This document shows positions 32,964-57,402 of a DNA stretch of 57,402 nt, piece after piece. A program made the translations under genes and the position numbers. Under the pieces are notes generated by a model that saw nothing but the letters and a program-made list of their open reading frames with translations, ran no database searches and had not been told where the DNA came from. The DNA lies in IMG/VR virus record IMGVR_UViG_3300030061_000751, positions 1-57,402 of that record; one strand, given 5' to 3'. The stretch is from a virus. How positions within the stretch are numbered: the first letter of the stretch is position 1; the number at the start of each line of letters is the position of its first letter.

Positions 32964-33037
32964 TGGAAGGGCGAGCGGGGATCGAACCCGCCTATCTGGA
33001 TTTGCAGTCCAGTGCATAACCACTCTGCCACCGCCCT
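32964..33037 (-). tRNA. tRNA-Cys (GCA), CCA encoded
   Basis: Reading the minus strand from 33037: acceptor AGGGCGG pairs with TCGCCCT (one G-T). The anticodon arm is CTGGA-CTGCAAA-TCCAG with anticodon GCA. The T arm is GCGGG-TTCGATC-CCCGC. The discriminator is T, as required in tRNA-Cys, followed by an encoded CCA (32966-32964). All arms are intact, so it should be functional. An intrinsic terminator stands just ahead of it in the leftward direction. Confidence 0.93.
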
Positions 33038-34396: not shown

Positions 34397-34400
34397 AATT

Positions 34401-34438
34401 GACTCCTCAGTCGTTTAGGTTTCGGCCAGTATCAGGCC
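34401..34438 (-). promoter_or_regulatory. Start-associated element D
   Basis: SD hairpin at 34401-34412: on the RNA, GACT-GAGG-AGTC, 4 bases before the ATG at 34396. An upstream hairpin GGCC-TGATACT-GGCC (34424-34438) follows, and the linker between them starts GAAAC as in element A. The upstream gene's stop lies in the GGCC hairpin loop. It lacks the second GC hairpin of the full form. Confidence 0.7.
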
Positions 34439-34581
34439 TCTTCGATAAAAAGAATGGGTGATGTACCCTGCAAAGTTTCAGTATCGTCAGTCGGCTCAAG
34501 AATCTCCCTGACCTCTTCCTCTGAAGCCGCATGGATATACACATAGCTATGGTTTTCAAACTCAACAAAAAATCTTTTCAT
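34432..34581 (-). CDS. Small hypothetical protein (49 residues)
   Basis: KRFFVEFENHSYVYIHAASE then EEEVREILEPTDDTETLQG and SPILFIEEA. Alternating beta/alpha pattern of a compact fold. Its start carries a weaker copy of the start-associated element (34586-34597). Function unknown. Confidence 0.65.
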   Translation of the reverse strand: MKRFFVEFENHSYVYIHAASEEEVREILEPTDDTETLQGTSPILFIEEA

Positions 34582-34585
34582 GATC

Positions 34586-34629
34586 GAATCCTCAATCGTT
34601 CTGTCAAACCTAGGGGGCGCATGGCCCCC
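34586..34629 (-). promoter_or_regulatory. Start-associated element E (diverged)
   Basis: RNA-strand GATTGAGGATTC replaces GACTGAGGAGTC, 4 bases before ATG 34581; one stem pair is lost. A strong hairpin GGGGGC/GCCCCC with 5-base loop lies upstream at 34613-34629, in the position of the GC hairpin of the full form. Confidence 0.55.
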
Positions 34630-34635
34630 AGTTGA

Positions 34636-34836
34636 TTAACCGCGTTTGGATTTAAAGGGCGTCATATACTTGCGTTCTGACACCTTGACTCGCTTGCGTG
34701 AGCCGTCAGTCCAGCGGATGTGCATCCACTTAGGCCCAACTTTCTCAATACAGGCGACCCGTATCCCTCGATCAGTGTGATACCAAACCGGCTCCCATCC
34801 TCGGTTGAGGGCTTTGCGGTAGGTCAGGCTCTGCAT
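34636..34836 (-). CDS. Small basic hypothetical protein
   Basis: 66 residues, overlapping the upstream gene by 13 bases and lacking its own start-associated element, so probably coupled. WEPVWYHTDRGIRVACIEKV then MHIRWTDGSRKRVKVSERKY: SH3-like beta pattern with a basic end. Possibly nucleic-acid binding. Confidence 0.7.
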   Translation of the reverse strand: MQSLTYRKALNRGWEPVWYHTDRGIRVACIEKVGPKWMHIRWTDGSRKRVKVSERKYMTPFKSKRG

Positions 34837-35027
34837 ATCGAAACACTCACATAGCGATTCTCTGACCCTTCCTTCTGAATCACATAGTGGATGTGATCAG
34901 TCTCGACATCGCGCATGATTTGATAGATGACATCATCAATATCATCATCAGTCACGGTGTCCTTCAGAGTAACGTGATCGGTGTACTCCTCTGGGTGCTC
35001 TGCGGTGCTATACCAAAGCGTAGTCAT
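34824..35027 (-). CDS. Small acidic hypothetical protein under element B
   Basis: 67 residues from ATG 35027; an in-frame ATG at 35045 lies inside the conserved hairpin and is probably not used. TTLWYSTAEHPEEYTDHVTL then TVTDDDIDDVIYQIMRDVE and a beta end. Strongly acidic. Acidic small proteins can be DNA mimics, but no specific sign is seen. Confidence 0.7.
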   Translation of the reverse strand: MTTLWYSTAEHPEEYTDHVTLKDTVTDDDIDDVIYQIMRDVETDHIHYVIQKEGSENRYVSVSICRA

Positions 35028-35031
35028 GGTT

Positions 35032-35106
35032 GACTCCTTAGTCATTCGGGCGGATTCCCGATAGCCGCCGGAGCGGCTTTCACGCTGTATCCCTCAGCGA
35101 TCATCA
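35032..35106 (-). promoter_or_regulatory. Start-associated element B (full structured leader)
   Basis: RNA order 5' to 3': hairpin P1 CGCTG/CAGCG (35099-35095 with 35087-35083) whose loop contains GGAT; hairpin P2 AGCCGC-TCCG-GCGGCT (35078-35063); GGGAATCCGCCC whose ATCC can pair with the P1 loop GGAT (pseudoknot 35092-35089 with 35055-35052); SD hairpin GACT-AAGG-AGTC (35043-35032) 4 bases before ATG. Layout is shared with elements A and C with different stem sequences. Confidence 0.7.
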
Positions 35107-35475
35107 GTCGGGGCTGTCTGCGCCTCTTATGGGGTGTTTCCAGCCCAAGTGAGGTGAGGGTAAGTCCAAGCAGACATTGAACGTGCTATTGCCGCCGTGG
35201 CGCGGCCCCCAGCTTCTTTTGAGTGCAACGCTTCTCATGTGGAGCGGTTCAAGTTGGTGAAGCCGCTCCTCGAATGAATCCATAAAGGCGTTGTATTTTT
35301 TCCACTCGGCGTCTGTGGTGAAGGCTCGCCCAGTGCGCGAGGTGTCTGCCAGAATGTCTTGTATTTCCTCTCTGGCGCGGAGCACACCCTTGCGCTCATC
35401 GGCGTTGTCACATTTGTGAAGGGCATCCGCGAGGATGCGGCCTAGTGTTGCGGCGTTGGCTTTGCTGATATTCAT
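35104..35475 (-). CDS. Hypothetical helical protein
   Basis: 123 residues. ANAATLGRILADALHKCDNA, a middle EWKKYNAFMDSFEERLHQLE, and a basic Trp-containing end. The first 85 residues look like a helical bundle. Its start carries element G. Function unknown. Confidence 0.7.
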   Translation of the reverse strand: MNISKANAATLGRILADALHKCDNADERKGVLRAREEIQDILADTSRTGRAFTTDAEWKKYNAFMDSFEERLHQLEPLHMRSVALKRSWGPRHGGNSTFNVCLDLPSPHLGWKHPIRGADSPD

Positions 35476-35479
35476 GGCT

Positions 35480-35491
35480 GACTCCTTAGCC
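35480..35491 (-). promoter_or_regulatory. Start-associated element G
   Basis: RNA strand GGCT-AAGG-AGTC: stem kept with a G-T pair where other copies have A-T. Four bases before ATG 35475. No clear upstream GC hairpin within 40 bases. Confidence 0.6.
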
Positions 35492-35492
35492 G

Positions 35493-35669
35493 TTAGGCGT
35501 TCTCTACCATGTTTTCTTGAACGGACTTTATTAAAGCCAGTGCGCTCTCTACATGGGCCAGTAGGTGTTGATTGTTGATGTTAATGCTTTGATTCAGCAG
35601 TAATTCATCTACAAAAATCAACAGGTCTGTTCTCGCTTCGTCTAGCTTTGCAACGTGAGCGTTTGTCAT
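35493..35669 (-). CDS. Small helical protein (58 residues)
   Basis: TNAHVAKLDEARTDLLIFVD then ELLLNQSININNQHLLAHVE and LALIKSVQENMVENA. Amphipathic helices with heptad character. Preceded by element F. Function unknown. Confidence 0.7.
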   Translation of the reverse strand: MTNAHVAKLDEARTDLLIFVDELLLNQSININNQHLLAHVESALALIKSVQENMVENA

Positions 35670-35673
35670 GATT

Positions 35674-35710
35674 GACTCCTAGTCAGTGGGTGAAGGCCGC
35701 TTATGCGGCC
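35674..35710 (-). promoter_or_regulatory. Start-associated element F
   Basis: RNA strand GACT-AGG-AGTC, one base shorter loop, 4 bases before ATG 35669. Upstream hairpin GGCCGC-ATAA-GCGGCC at 35710-35695; its tetraloop carries the TAA stop of the upstream antirestriction gene. Confidence 0.65.
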
Positions 35711-36597
35711 TGTTGAAGTTCGACATCATCAGAGAATGAGTCGAGATGCTCGTATGCCGCCTGAGCTAGCTTGGCGGCGCGGTAGATGGCCTTGCTGTCA
35801 TCACGCAGAGCCTGCATCCAGCTCTTGAGGTAGATGGCATGGTCAGGGCGAGGTGTCTGCTCCAGACCGTGAGCCGCGCAGGCGAAGGTTGCAGTGAGTT
35901 CAGCGACCAATTCTTCGAACCCATAGTCGGCACTGCCAAACCTGCCAGATTGGTCACGGTCAAGCTGTGAGGTGTGGCCTGTTGCATGACCAAACTCATG
36001 AAACAGAGTGCCATACGCGGTGCAGGTTGCGGTGGCATCGCCGATGCTGACAAATGAATCGAAATCAGGCATCCCGATGTGGTGCAGGGCGGGGTTGTAG
36101 TAAGCGCCAGACTGCCCGTATTTGACAGCAGGCATCCCCATGCCCACCCGTGCATTCTCAAGCCACTGGTCAATCTCAGCGACACGCTCGACGGGGTTGA
36201 GCACTGGGGTGGCGTCCAGCTCGGGAGCGCCGTCTACCTGCTCGGCATTGAATACCGTGTACACCTTGGCAAACGGTATCTTTTTCTTTGAGCCGTCATC
36301 TTCTTCGATGTCGAGCATCTTAAAGAAGATGATCTTAGTGCCGCTCTCGCCCTTGCGGACCTGAGCATTGAGTGACTTCCACTGCTTGTAGGTAGCCCAG
36401 CGGGTATCGGTAAAGGTGGAGAGCATCATCAGCACGATCTGATTGATGCCCTTGTAGGCGTTGCCGCTGACAATGTTGGTCTGCAAGCCTGCGGAGGTGT
36501 TGGTGAAAAACGGCTTGGTGTAGTCGCTCAGGCTCACCTCTTCGAGCTGTGCCAATACGGTGTTGGTGACTACTTCATACGCTGTTTGCTTTGCCAT
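35701..36597 (-). CDS. ardC-like: ArdC-like antirestriction protein with zincin domain
   Basis: 298 residues from ATG 36597. N-terminal ~130 residues (ISGxAY-type stretch IVSGNAYKGINQIVLM; RWATYKQWKSLNAQVRKGES; GTKIIFFK) match the single-strand-DNA-binding domain of ArdC/DUF1738. The C-terminal domain has the metallopeptidase motif H200-E-F-G-H204 and FEELVAE (about 227-233) for the third ligand. ArdC homologues protect incoming DNA from restriction. Leftmost large gene of the early cluster, so it would be made early. Starts with the full structured leader A. Confidence 0.85.
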   Translation of the reverse strand: MAKQTAYEVVTNTVLAQLEEVSLSDYTKPFFTNTSAGLQTNIVSGNAYKGINQIVLMMLSTFTDTRWATYKQWKSLNAQVRKGESGTKIIFFKMLDIEEDDGSKKKIPFAKVYTVFNAEQVDGAPELDATPVLNPVERVAEIDQWLENARVGMGMPAVKYGQSGAYYNPALHHIGMPDFDSFVSIGDATATCTAYGTLFHEFGHATGHTSQLDRDQSGRFGSADYGFEELVAELTATFACAAHGLEQTPRPDHAIYLKSWMQALRDDSKAIYRAAKLAQAAYEHLDSFSDDVELQQAA

Positions 36598-36604
36598 GAT
36601 CGGT

Positions 36605-36673
36605 GACTCCTCAGTCATCAGGGTGGATTCCCATGACGCCCCGTGGGGCGTTTCGGCCTGTATCCAGCAGGCC
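36605..36673 (-). promoter_or_regulatory. Start-associated element A (full structured leader)
   Basis: RNA order: P1 GGCCTG/CAGGCC (36673-36668 with 36660-36655), loop containing GGAT; linker GAAA; P2 ACGCCC-CACG-GGGCGT (36651-36636); GGGAATCCACCC with ATCC (36628-36625) able to pair with GGAT (36665-36662); SD hairpin GACT-GAGG-AGTC (36616-36605) 7 bases before ATG 36597. Conserved CTGATGAT precedes P1 in both A and B. Confidence 0.7.
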
Positions 36674-36686
36674 ATCATCAGATGGG

Positions 36687-37076
36687 TTAGGCGGCGTCCA
36701 CTTCGACACCTTCATAGGTATCAGCGAACACGGTACGCACAGCGGCCTGCGAGGCTTTAGCCTCAGACCATCTGCGCTTCTTCGCGGCGTGCTTTGGGGT
36801 GCGGGTGCGACTGAACTGCACCGGCTTCAGCGGATCGTCGGTGTAGCTGTCATCATCAACCTTGCCATACAGGCCGCGATGATCAGCAATCCACGCGCCG
36901 TCATACTCGGTGACATCGTAGATTGCAGAGTAGATGTTGACCTCGGACAGATCGTAGTAGGTAGTCCAATCTGTCAAGGCCATGAGCATCTGCTCGACTG
37001 CCTCGCACGGTGTGTCACCGTATCCCCATGAAGAACCGCCGCCGATTGAAACGAAAGAAAGGTATTGCGTTTTCAT
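36687..37076 (-). CDS. Hypothetical protein, first gene of leftward cluster
   Basis: 129 residues. TQYLSFVSIGGGSSWGYGDT then EAVEQMLMALTDWTTYYDLS at the N-terminal half; YDGAWIADHRGLYGKVDDDS in the middle; Lys/Arg/Ala-rich C-terminus (HAAKKRRWSEAKASQAAVR). Preceded by element C. As the first gene after the 37.1-37.8 kb control region it should be among the earliest expressed. Function unknown. Confidence 0.75.
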   Translation of the reverse strand: MKTQYLSFVSIGGGSSWGYGDTPCEAVEQMLMALTDWTTYYDLSEVNIYSAIYDVTEYDGAWIADHRGLYGKVDDDSYTDDPLKPVQFSRTRTPKHAAKKRRWSEAKASQAAVRTVFADTYEGVEVDAA

Positions 37077-37080
37077 ATTT

Positions 37081-37138
37081 GACTCCTCAGTCAGTTATGA
37101 GTGGGGTTGAGCGAAAGTGCTCACGCATACCCAACGCG
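37081..37138 (-). promoter_or_regulatory. Start-associated element C (full structured leader)
   Basis: SD hairpin GACT-GAGG-AGTC (37092-37081) 4 bases before ATG 37076. P2 TGAGC-ACTTTC-GCTCA (37123-37108). P1 weak, CGC/GCG plus a G-T (37138-37124). Loop GGGT (37132-37129) can pair with ACCC (37107-37104). In A and B these partners are GGAT and ATCC, a compensatory change. Confidence 0.6.
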
Positions 37139-37819
37139 CTCGGCGGTGGGCATGGTGTGAAAACTCTCTGATCAGCCACTCCACCCTACAGCGCAGGTAT
37201 GGGATAGCTGATGCATCAATGCGGGGTCAGTGATGCGCTGACTGTCACCCTGCTGGTAGGCATGAGGTGCCGCTTGCTTGCTCAAGACAGGACGGCTTGA
37301 ATCGCCCCGAAGTTGGCCGTGTGGTTTGTAGGCCCACCCCTGCGGGCGTAAGGTGCCCCGTATCCCCCAACCTCGTTATCAGGTTGGTGTGGTAACGCTA
37401 CAGGATGCAAAGTCATAAAACAACACCCTGAGACAAATGATTTTCAGACAAGTCTTATGACTATATATAGCAAATTAAATTGCGAGCAGTGGGGAAAGGT
37501 GTTGACACAGTGATGAGAAGTGTGATTGCGATCATGAATCACGTAAGTCATTGATATGTCAGGAATTAAAAAGTGTTGACAAAGTGTAATTTACCAAAAA
37601 ACACTGTATATACATACAGGTCTCTAAATGGCCCGTGAGCGGCTTTTAAGGGGTTACCCCTTGCGTTGGTATTGGTGACAGCTAATCGCTCCCACAGCGC
37701 TTCCTATGGCCCTTGTCGAGGGTGTGACTGTTTTTGGGTACTTCTTAGCTTTTTGTAGGAAAGTGGTTGATTTCGGGGTCATGGTATGCTGGGGGTATTG
37801 AATCAGTGAGGTGATCATC
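37139..37819. promoter_or_regulatory. Main control region between early and late transcription
   Basis: About 680 bases without a gene. The GC-rich left half (37139-37400) holds hairpins, e.g. CCAACCT/AGGTTGG at 37367-37387. The AT-rich right half (37420-37625) holds two near-identical boxes GTGTTGACA(C/A)AGTG (37502-37515 and 37573-37586), an extended -10-like TGCTATATAT on the minus strand near 37465, and a LexA-box-like site. The hairpin AAGGGG-TTA-CCCCTT lies at 37649-37663. It probably contains the early leftward promoter and perhaps the replication origin; this is inferred. Confidence 0.55.
37604..37619. promoter_or_regulatory. LexA/SOS-box-like site 1
   Basis: CTGTATATACATACAG has the CTGT-N8-ACAG form of gamma-proteobacterial LexA boxes with the AT-rich alternating core. 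The extended 15 bases 37602-37616 recur inverted at 38380-38394. Binding by host LexA, or by a phage repressor not identified here, is inferred. Confidence 0.55.
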
Positions 37820-49779: not shown

Positions 49780-49790
49780 CCCTGACTAAT

Positions 49791-49806
49791 TGTTCCATGT
49801 GGAACA
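49791..49806. promoter_or_regulatory. parS-like 16-mer
   Basis: TGTTCCATGTGGAACA differs by one central base from the ParB-binding parS form TGTTCCACGTGGAACA known from bacterial chromosomes. Lies 12 bases after the terminator T-run and 30 bases before the next ATG. On RNA it could also form TGTTCC-ATGT-GGAACA, so a hairpin is the alternative reading. Confidence 0.5.
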
Positions 49807-49835
49807 TTAGACACTAGCCACGACAGGAGAATCAC

Positions 49836-50318
49836 ATGGCTAATACTACATTCAGCGGTGCTGTCCGCTCTGAAAATGGTTTTTCAGATATCACCAAAAA
49901 TTCCACTACTGGCTCTATTACCAGCACCATGACGTTATCCACCTACGAGGCGACGATTACCGTGGCTAATGGTGCAACGACAGGTAAGGAAGCCGCTATT
50001 GGCATCCCCTCAAACTTTATCCCTATGGGTGTGTTGGTCGCTGTTACCACAGCTTCTGCTAACTCCGTCAACCTTAACGATATTGGCACCGATGCAGACA
50101 CTGACGGCTTTGTCGATGGTATCTCTGCCGCTGTTAACTCTACGGGCTTCAAAGGGTTTTTCCCCTGCAATGGCGTTCTCGGGATGTCCGGTGGCACAAC
50201 CACTGCGTCTACAGAAACAGCAGACGAAGTAGAGATTGTGCTTTCTGGCGATCCGGGTGGCGACACAGTTGTTGTCCTCAAGTTTTTCGGCATCTCTACC
50301 ACTTCAGACGCATCATAA
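49836..50318 (+). CDS. Capsid decoration-like protein
   Basis: 160 residues, good ribosome-binding site (ACAGGAGA). Thr/Ser/Gly/Val-rich beta protein: TSTMTLSTYEATITVANGAT-type segments, NFIPMGVLVAVTTASANSVN, EVEIVLSGDPGGDTVVVLKF. It follows the coat gene. Likely an outer head or fibre component; no enzyme motif. Confidence 0.75.
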   Translation: MANTTFSGAVRSENGFSDITKNSTTGSITSTMTLSTYEATITVANGATTGKEAAIGIPSNFIPMGVLVAVTTASANSVNLNDIGTDADTDGFVDGISAAVNSTGFKGFFPCNGVLGMSGGTTTASTETADEVEIVLSGDPGGDTVVVLKFFGISTTSDAS

Positions 50319-56548: not shown

Positions 56549-57402
56549 AAGCTATAGGCAATACGCTACCAAGAAGATTCAAGGCCAAGGCCAGCGGCTC
56601 AATCACTGCGGGTAAGCCTTGCATTGTCGAGGCTGACGGGGATGTGGCGCAGGTCGCGGAAAGTGCGGCAAGCGTAGGCACACCAGTTGTTCTTGATAGC
56701 AATAACTGCCTAGGAATGATTTCTGTATATCATGCTACGGCAGAAAGAGTGGTGGTTATCTATCAAAGATCATCCAAGGTGAGAGCAAGGGTGGGCGCTG
56801 TCTCTGGCGACACTATAAGCTGGGGCAGTGAAACTGATGTTGAGTCAGGAAATAGCTATCCTCTAGGACTTTCGTATGACTCTGGGGAAGAGCAAGTTGT
56901 CGCTGTTTATTATGATGACGGTAATTCTACCTATGGTACAGCCCGTGTTATGACGGTTAATGCCAGCGGCGACTCTGGCTCTGGAAACATATCCTCCCTT
57001 GGAACCCCTGTTGTTTTTAACTCTGCGACCACCTATGGCGGCGGTATCGCTTATGACATCAACGCCAGCAAACACCTAGTTGCTTTTCGTGATAGCAACA
57101 ATGATGGTCGCGGTAGGGTTGCGACCGTTTCGGGGACGAGTATCAGTTTTGGCACAGAGGCTACATTTCAGTCTGCTACCGCCTATTACATTAGCGTGAC
57201 TTATGACGAGGCCGCGCAAAAACACATTGTTTTTCATAACAGAAACTTTACTGACGGCAAAGCAGTTGTCGGAACAATCAGTGGTACGGATGTCACGTTT
57301 GGTAGCCAAGCAGAATTCAACGCCTCAAACACTGGTGACTATTTGCGCGGAGCCTATGATTCGACCTCGCAAAAAGTAGTGCTTGCGTACAGAGACAACG
57401 GT
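56545..57402 (+). CDS. Seven-blade propeller tail-fibre paralogue 2, N-terminal part
   Basis: First 286 codons of the gene that continues at base 1. N-terminus (NTLPRRFKAKASGSITAGKP then CIVEADGDVAQVAESA) matches paralogue 1. Repeat units 1 to 4 and the start of unit 5 lie here; the 57-bp overlap falls in unit 5. Joined product: 477 residues, seven units, full C-terminal domain. Confidence 0.85.
   Translation, partial: MKAIGNTLPRRFKAKASGSITAGKPCIVEADGDVAQVAESAASVGTPVVLDSNNCLGMISVYHATAERVVVIYQRSSKVRARVGAVSGDTISWGSETDVESGNSYPLGLSYDSGEEQVVAVYYDDGNSTYGTARVMTVNASGDSGSGNISSLGTPVVFNSATTYGGGIAYDINASKHLVAFRDSNNDGRGRVATVSGTSISFGTEATFQSATAYYISVTYDEAAQKHIVFHNRNFTDGKAVVGTISGTDVTFGSQAEFNASNTGDYLRGAYDSTSQKVVLAYRDNG
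57346..57402. repeat. Right copy of the terminal overlap (57 bp)
   Basis: Matches bases 1-57 with one mismatch (57363 G versus 18 A). Joining here keeps the reading frame of the fibre gene that starts at 56545 and ends at 633. Confidence 0.85.

Follow-up and report, generated by a model that had tools for sequence, protein, structure and literature searches.

The window analyzed in this study, the whole 57,402-nt stretch of the IMG/VR virus record IMGVR_UViG_3300030061_000751, carries a minus-strand operon that includes an ardC-like antirestriction gene and in which seven genes, named here by their start positions (34396, 34581, 35027, 35475, 35669, 36597 for ardC, and 37076), are preceded by a small hairpin holding the Shine–Dalgarno (SD) sequence (Table 1). 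The terminases closest to that of the window come from Pelagibacter phages and lake-water phages. Comparison of the window leaders with those of relatives revealed that the seven hairpins are the downstream ends of larger leaders often carrying a hammerhead ribozyme, the upstream part of which had been missed by the first-pass annotation of this DNA. Two of the seven leaders contain a complete ribozyme, two carry halves of a type III hammerhead that has decayed, and in the remaining three the upstream region has a different structure or none.

The first-pass annotation had described a repeated start-associated element, which is supported here: seven minus-strand SD hairpins of the GACTNAGGAGTC type lie 4–8 nt before the ATG of open reading frames (ORFs). 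The window has four exact copies of GACTNAGGAGTC, each at one of these starts (0.028 expected from base composition), and several copies pair one base more (TGACU/AGUCA). When three mismatches are allowed, the motif is not enriched over shuffles (58 versus 50), so only close copies are meaningful; start 34836, within the cluster, is without the motif. Two variant copies needed refinement, as the one at 34586, said to have lost a pair, forms an alternative 6-bp hairpin, and the G–T copy at 35480 may also adopt a second fold (Table 1). Folded in isolation, the hairpins reach −3.4 to −5.2 kcal/mol; when more flanking sequence is included, some copies adopt other structures. Six of the seven starts of this operon have an SD hairpin, whatever its sequence, where 1.8 are expected; in the rest of the window such hairpins occur at 22 of 65 starts (16.2 expected), which is near chance. 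Promoter and terminator scans at each leader returned no more than in shuffles. A strict start-repeat pattern matched 94 stretches in IMG/VR, mostly lone matches unconnected with this system, and few contigs were multi-copy. Although GACUGAGGAGUC contains CUGAGGA and GUC, the idea that the start repeat is itself a hammerhead core was rejected, since the core is disrupted in the GACUAAGGAGUC and GACUUAGGAGUC variants and in other stem families.

An IMG/VR pattern search combined with a pairing descriptor provided 41 distinct type I hammerhead copies, which were aligned to build a custom covariance model (R1). Across the whole window R1 has exactly two type I matches, upstream of ardC and of gene 35027, with the next best at 9.9 bits. 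The ardC-leader ribozyme has the core CUGAUGA..GAAAC..GUC and three helices, and both window copies hold every core position (C3 U4 G5 A6 N7 G8 A9, G12 A13 A14, A15.1–U16.1 and a cleavable H17), with the cleavage triplets GUC (ardC leader) and CUA (gene 35027 leader). Type I copies consist of three helices open at stem I, and stem II often has one unpaired base beside A9, which is unusual. The ribozyme of the gene 35027 leader overlaps the stop codon of gene 35475. In the 41-copy alignment, 92.8% of pair cells are formed (76.1% when shuffled, 28–45% when slid), and 129 double-change cells (31.6 in the control) are distributed over 18 of 21 pairs, so that all three helices and the loop II pseudoknot covary. 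The pseudoknot itself (GGAU/AUCC) is paired in 86% of cells, with double changes at two of its four pairs. Self-cleavage of the window ribozymes upstream of their genes is predicted from these features.

Table 1. Genes, ribozymes and leader structures of the operon (window coordinates)
Feature	Position	Strand	Basis
SD hairpin of gene 34396	34400..34412	-	motif and fold
Remnant B, type III: stem II, GAAAC, stem III 3' strand	34413..34438	-	versus L072, L022
SD hairpin variant GAUUGA-GGAU-UCGAUC of gene 34581	34582..34597	-	motif and fold
Remnant A, type III: leading GGGGGC hairpin, mutated triplet GGUU, part of stem I	34600..34638	-	versus intact L098, L072
Gene 35027, 67 aa, no assigned function	34824..35027	-	ORF, annotation searches
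SD hairpin UGACU-AAGG-AGUCA of gene 35027	35031..35044	-	motif and fold
Post-cleavage hairpin UCGGG-AAUCCG-CCCGA, gene 35027 leader	35046..35061	-	exclusive with ribozyme stem I
Type I hammerhead upstream of gene 35027, predicted cut 35062/35061	35052..35113	-	R1 66.8 bits, E 8e-15
SD hairpin variant GGCUAAGGAGUC of gene 35475, alternative GGCU/AGCC	35480..35491	-	motif and fold
SD hairpin UGACU-AGG-AGUCA of gene 35669	35673..35685	-	motif and fold
Hairpin GGCCGC-AUAA-GCGGCC at ardC stop codon, in gene 35669 leader	35695..35710	-	also L033, L047, L072, L084, L098
ardC-like antirestriction protein (ArdcN + MPTase-PolyVal)	35701..36597	-	Pfam and PHROG matches
SD hairpin UGACU-GAGG-AGUCA of ardC	36604..36617	-	motif and fold
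Predicted ardC mRNA 5' end; short hairpin GGG/CCC from stem I 3' strand	36619..36634	-	fold
Type I hammerhead upstream of ardC, predicted cut between 36635 (C17) and 36634	36625..36687	-	R1 covariance model 85.9 bits, E 1e-19
Gene 37076, 129 aa, no assigned function	36687..37076	-	ORF, homologs
SD hairpin of gene 37076	37080..37093	-	motif and fold

About 55 type I relatives were identified in uncultivated phage contigs, and R1 gives about 75 matches in the 45-odd fetched loci that carry relatives of the window leaders (L-numbers, such as L022, L033, L072, L098 and L135), many of them in overlapping or duplicate contigs. Hammerheads precede many accessory genes in this phage and its relatives; in nearly all copies, the type III relatives described below included, the cut lies 24–58 nt upstream of a start codon on the same strand. 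Among named isolates, all three type I copies of Faecalibacterium phage FP_Brigit and Salisaeta icosahedral phage 1 precede annotated genes. A 65-bit type I hammerhead in Flavonifractor phage Castelnaud (L190 1215–1279, plus strand) is antisense to an annotated hypothetical gene, the annotation of which may be wrong.

These ribozymes were detected only by the descriptor, the pattern search and the custom covariance model. Rfam reported no ribozyme in the window at standard or whole-window E-value settings; a short scan gave 12.3 bits for Hammerhead_1 and 20.6 bits for Hammerhead_II. The window and L101 copies score 12–21 bits and L098 scores 28, under gathering cut-offs of 34–48.5, which are a detection threshold and not a biochemical criterion; core and topology are the same as in RF00163 (Hammerhead_1) and RF00008 (Hammerhead_3). 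This ribozyme class is therefore probably under-annotated. The Hammerhead_II match at 36601–36658 was rejected because no stem I can form there, and the type I reading scores far higher.

Immediately downstream of the predicted cut, type I copies have the stem I 3' strand, a loop that is usually AAUCCA and then a second complementary strand, with which the freed strand could form a new 5' hairpin. Such a post-cleavage hairpin of at least 4 bp is present in 51 of 56 type I copies, whereas the count is 18.4 with shuffled tails and 30.3 (maximum 37 in 500) when copies exchange tails. It also follows the ribozymes of FP_Brigit and Salisaeta icosahedral phage 1. Stem I and the post-cleavage hairpin are mutually exclusive, which suggests that the ribozyme would fold and cut first during transcription and that the second strand would then capture the product. 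In longer leaders (51–58 nt; L101, L133, L154, L156, L172 and others) the stretch from the cut to the SD includes an additional hairpin, CCCC-acaccact-GGGG.

The SD hairpin is kept in relatives, with compensatory changes. The SD is enclosed by a stem of 4 bp or more at 35 of 53 non-redundant ribozyme-linked starts (11.1 in flank shuffles). At control starts of these loci the count is 173 of 533, close to the chance expectation of 145 (Fisher P 2e-6 for ribozyme-linked versus control starts). When starts were gathered by the core CTNRGGAG alone, with no pairing required, both outer pairs were kept in 41 of 60 cases in these contigs, in the forms GA/TC, CA/TG, AC/GT, TC/GG and TA/TA, versus 7 of 37 elsewhere. 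Exact GA/TC copies were left out of the set from elsewhere because it was fetched by pattern; with GA/TC removed from both sets the counts are 21 of 40 versus 7 of 37 (P 0.002). The hairpin arms show 51 double-change cells versus 26 in shuffles. In L143 (also L138 and L168), three genes carry GATC/GATC, GACC/GGTC and GTCC/GGAC, respectively, around one AACAGGA loop.

Relatives that share the SD repeat of the window also contain eight type III hammerheads, which end just before the repeat and have the core, hairpin stems I and II and an open stem III. Covariation among their seven distinct sequences is 0.479, versus 0.171 when shuffled and at most 0.146 when slid, and Rfam Hammerhead_3 matches the L098 copy (E 2e-4). 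In the window, two type III remnants flank a 49-aa gene, remnant A preceding gene 34581 and remnant B preceding gene 34396, both lacking the core. Together with a type I copy in L022 that has collapsed to CCCATCTGATGATGGGAATCC, these split remnants indicate that ribozymes are gained and lost and that the SD repeat stays. L101 and L170 may have, upstream of ardC, a type III hammerhead whose stem II is enlarged. The ACAA strand of its stem III would share bases with CAATC, the 5' arm of the SD hairpin, so that cutting could be linked to folding of the SD region there.

Near-identical genes have unrelated leaders, and gene and leader meet at the start codon or close to it: the MRKPTP gene of L135 and L162 (gene 100% identical, upstream 54%), the MYYIN gene of L135 and L162 (99 and 57%) and of L124 and L145 (97 and 57%, SD repeat kept, ribozyme not shared), and the MKMHNV gene of L180 and L033 (95 and 56%). 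Homologs of gene 37076 in L101, L133 and L170 have a type I hammerhead upstream, and the homolog of gene 35475 in L180 has one at this position. In front of ardC-like genes the leaders vary: hammerheads of types I and III, a pseudoknot and plain hairpins all occur. The suggestion in the first-pass annotation that the repeat marks a module boundary agrees with these junctions, which fall at or near the hairpin. In the ardC leaders of L084 (about 940–990) and L047 (about 1190–1240), a possible H-type pseudoknot (CGGC-aacGGGGA-GCCG..TCCCC) lies directly before the SD repeat, replacing the ribozyme.

Sequence comparison establishes the ribozymes, their covariation and position, both downstream hairpins and the module junctions. 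From these we infer cutting in the cell, a co-transcriptional folding order, mRNA stabilization and insulation, which together would make the leaders modular and self-maturing, with a ribozyme cut, a 5' hairpin cap and SD display that give context-independent translation as in a natural counterpart of RiboJ; we regard this reading as reasonably probable. In a complete leader, a type I or type III hammerhead would cleave the phage transcript some tens of nucleotides upstream of the start codon. In type I leaders the freed stem I 3' strand would be captured by the complementary strand just downstream; the hairpin formed in this way at the new 5'-OH end would cap the mRNA and prevent reversal of the cut. 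The small hairpin would hold the SD near its loop and prevent pairing with foreign sequence, so that each gene would have its own mRNA start with a standard leader, which may suit often-swapped accessory genes. 5'-OH ends from cleavage and 5' hairpins slow bacterial mRNA decay, and hairpins weaker than about −6 kcal/mol barely hinder Escherichia coli ribosomes. An SD hairpin this weak is easier to reconcile with display than with an on/off switch. The first-pass annotation had suggested a shared translational switch; a stand-alone switch is not supported here, as the hairpins are weak, nothing points to a ligand or regulator, and the stems differ between genes of one phage.

Several observations weigh against this reading. 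Five of the seven window leaders are without a complete hammerhead, which indicates that the SD hairpin is independent of the ribozyme, and about a third of ribozyme-linked starts are without a 4-bp SD stem. The ardC post-cleavage hairpin is weak (just 3–4 bp), and covariation of the post-cleavage hairpins, in a separate alignment with a stricter column count, is modest (0.240 versus 0.147, 1 of 500 shuffles). Single-structure folds, from a program that ignores pseudoknots, favor the downstream hairpin over stem I, so cutting must win through co-transcriptional order or the pseudoknot. The relatives are mostly fragments of uncultivated phage contigs, several of them near-duplicates, and all tallies count related sequences as separate, which overstates independence. 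The type I seed set was picked with a descriptor requiring pairing, which biases the paired percentages upward; compensatory changes and the invariant core are the stronger evidence because the pairing filter generates neither.

Alternatively, the ribozymes may process the transcript or have some other function, for instance division of the phage RNA into operon pieces, the start repeat being a favorable ribosome-binding site (RBS) spread by copying and its hairpin having no role. In favor of this, the repeat holds a strong SD (GAGGAG), copies within a phage hardly differ, the hairpins have little stability and hairpin-less starts exist next to ribozymes; however, the flanking arms change together, one contig has three different stems around one loop, and the outer pairs are kept far more often in these contigs than elsewhere, also after removal of GA/TC, so we consider this reading unlikely. 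It is harder still to see the palindrome as an operator in the DNA that binds a dimeric phage regulator and covers the SD by coincidence, and we hold this to be highly improbable: the dyad is perfect (TGACTnnnnAGTCA), and half-site covariation would also be expected of a protein dimer site, but the palindrome is always over the SD and in the direction of the gene, several palindromes lie just downstream of ribozymes, inside the transcript, G–U pairs are present, and the three stems around a constant SD loop within a single contig favor pairing in the RNA over one operator for a protein.

The hairpin would be a translational switch if a phage protein or small RNA recognized it in trans, as happens with T4 RegA and RNA phage coat proteins, and a common hairpin at seven starts of one cluster, with the SD partly within the stem, would fit a regulon. 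Stem and loop sequences vary between phages and within one, and no candidate regulator was found, although no direct test was made; we judge this quite improbable. We give similarly little credence to the view that the repeat and ribozymes persist chiefly for the short homology they offer to module exchange, with any effects on expression secondary. Identical or near-identical genes with unrelated leaders and junctions at the start, the gene and SD repeat that L124 and L145 have in common without a common ribozyme, and the split type III remnants on both sides of the 49-aa gene are in its favor, but some exchanged genes are without a common repeat (L135/L162, gene 100%, SD region 57% identical), and homology alone leaves the conserved catalytic core and pseudoknot unexplained.

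The self-maturing leader proposed here resembles several known systems. RiboJ, which consists of the sTRSV hammerhead and a 23-nt hairpin, removes upstream RNA and increases the transcript level about 2-fold and the protein level 2- to 10-fold (PMC8794103, PMC6206723). The order of hammerhead, hairpin and ribosome-binding site is the same in both complete window leaders and most relatives, where cutting is predicted; RiboJ was engineered from a plant satellite RNA, whereas the phage leaders are natural, belong to type I or III and, in type I, re-use the ribozyme's own stem I strand for the hairpin. Clustered prophage hammerheads with a loop II pseudoknot, several of which flank single phage genes including antirestriction ardA, were proposed to process transcripts to operon- or gene-length mRNAs, and activity was shown for the Agrobacterium tumefaciens set (Perreault et al., 2011, PMC3088659). 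Both systems place hammerheads with a loop II pseudoknot at phage genes including an antirestriction gene; as far as the sections of that paper considered here go, only the window-type leaders are described with a post-cleavage hairpin, an SD hairpin and a start codon. The reason for the gene associations of phage hammerheads was still called unknown in 2023 (PMC10085705). Phage hammerheads have been known since at least 2011, and the start-codon leader architecture is a new variation on them; no description of the combined leader was found in the open-access literature searched, subscription papers being outside its scope.

The start-associated sequences of cluster K mycobacteriophages, to which the first-pass annotation had likened the repeat, are repeated 12–13-nt elements with an SD and inverted ends (GGG..CCC) at many starts outside structural genes (Pope et al., 2011, PMC3203893). 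The comparison is fair as an analogy, since the window repeat likewise lies just before start codons and outside structural genes; the sequence differs, however, and cluster K arms are invariant. The cluster K consensus GGGATAGGAGCCC has no match in the window at up to two mismatches, and the ribozyme model has none in the cluster K phage Pixie. A direct-repeat search of the window leaders returned only the SD repeat as shared, inverted pairs such as the extended cluster K element (17 bp, imperfect) not being specifically searched. A 26-bp start-associated-like repeat precedes eight start codons of Citrobacter phage Mordin (PMC4611695); its sequence differs, and no ribozyme is reported in that paper or was looked for here.

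Other features were observed in the window. The leader of gene 37076 (37095–37250) shares another structured element, an ATGCCCA..TGGGCAT hairpin followed by GTGAG..CTCA, with L033 (about 1560–1620) and L099 (8384–8455). In the structural gene region, an Rfam Mu-gpT-DE RNA (RF03012, 51.8 bits, above cut-off) at 49780–49838 on the plus strand ends at the ATG of gene 49836 and represents another structured start-codon leader. A tRNA-Cys (GCA) gene is located at 32964–33037 on the minus strand, just downstream of the cluster. The window ends (1–57 and 57346–57402) carry a near-identical repeat resembling a tail-fiber repeat unit (GAYDSTSQKVVLAYRDNGN), and the contig therefore probably breaks inside a repeated gene. 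Two strict patterns had no match in 84,980 prokaryote genomes in a host search, the 129-aa product of gene 37076 had no match among named phages, and a nucleotide search of the region against named phages returned no matches.

More tentatively, we suggest that the plug-in gene leader is a natural RNA insulator built of an interchangeable type I or III hammerhead that would remove all upstream RNA, a strand-capture cap and an SD hairpin that would standardize translation, which may allow accessory genes to be exchanged between genomes without re-tuning and may set the recombination junctions that are tolerated. If true, this leader would answer why hammerheads cluster in phage genomes, and it assigns a testable role to each part, namely the cut, the cap and the displayed SD. 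A design engineered by hand in RiboJ may thus occur naturally in many phages, some of them isolated, and the leaders would supply ready-made natural insulator sequences. The proposal also suggests a physical reason for the free shuffling of phage accessory genes.

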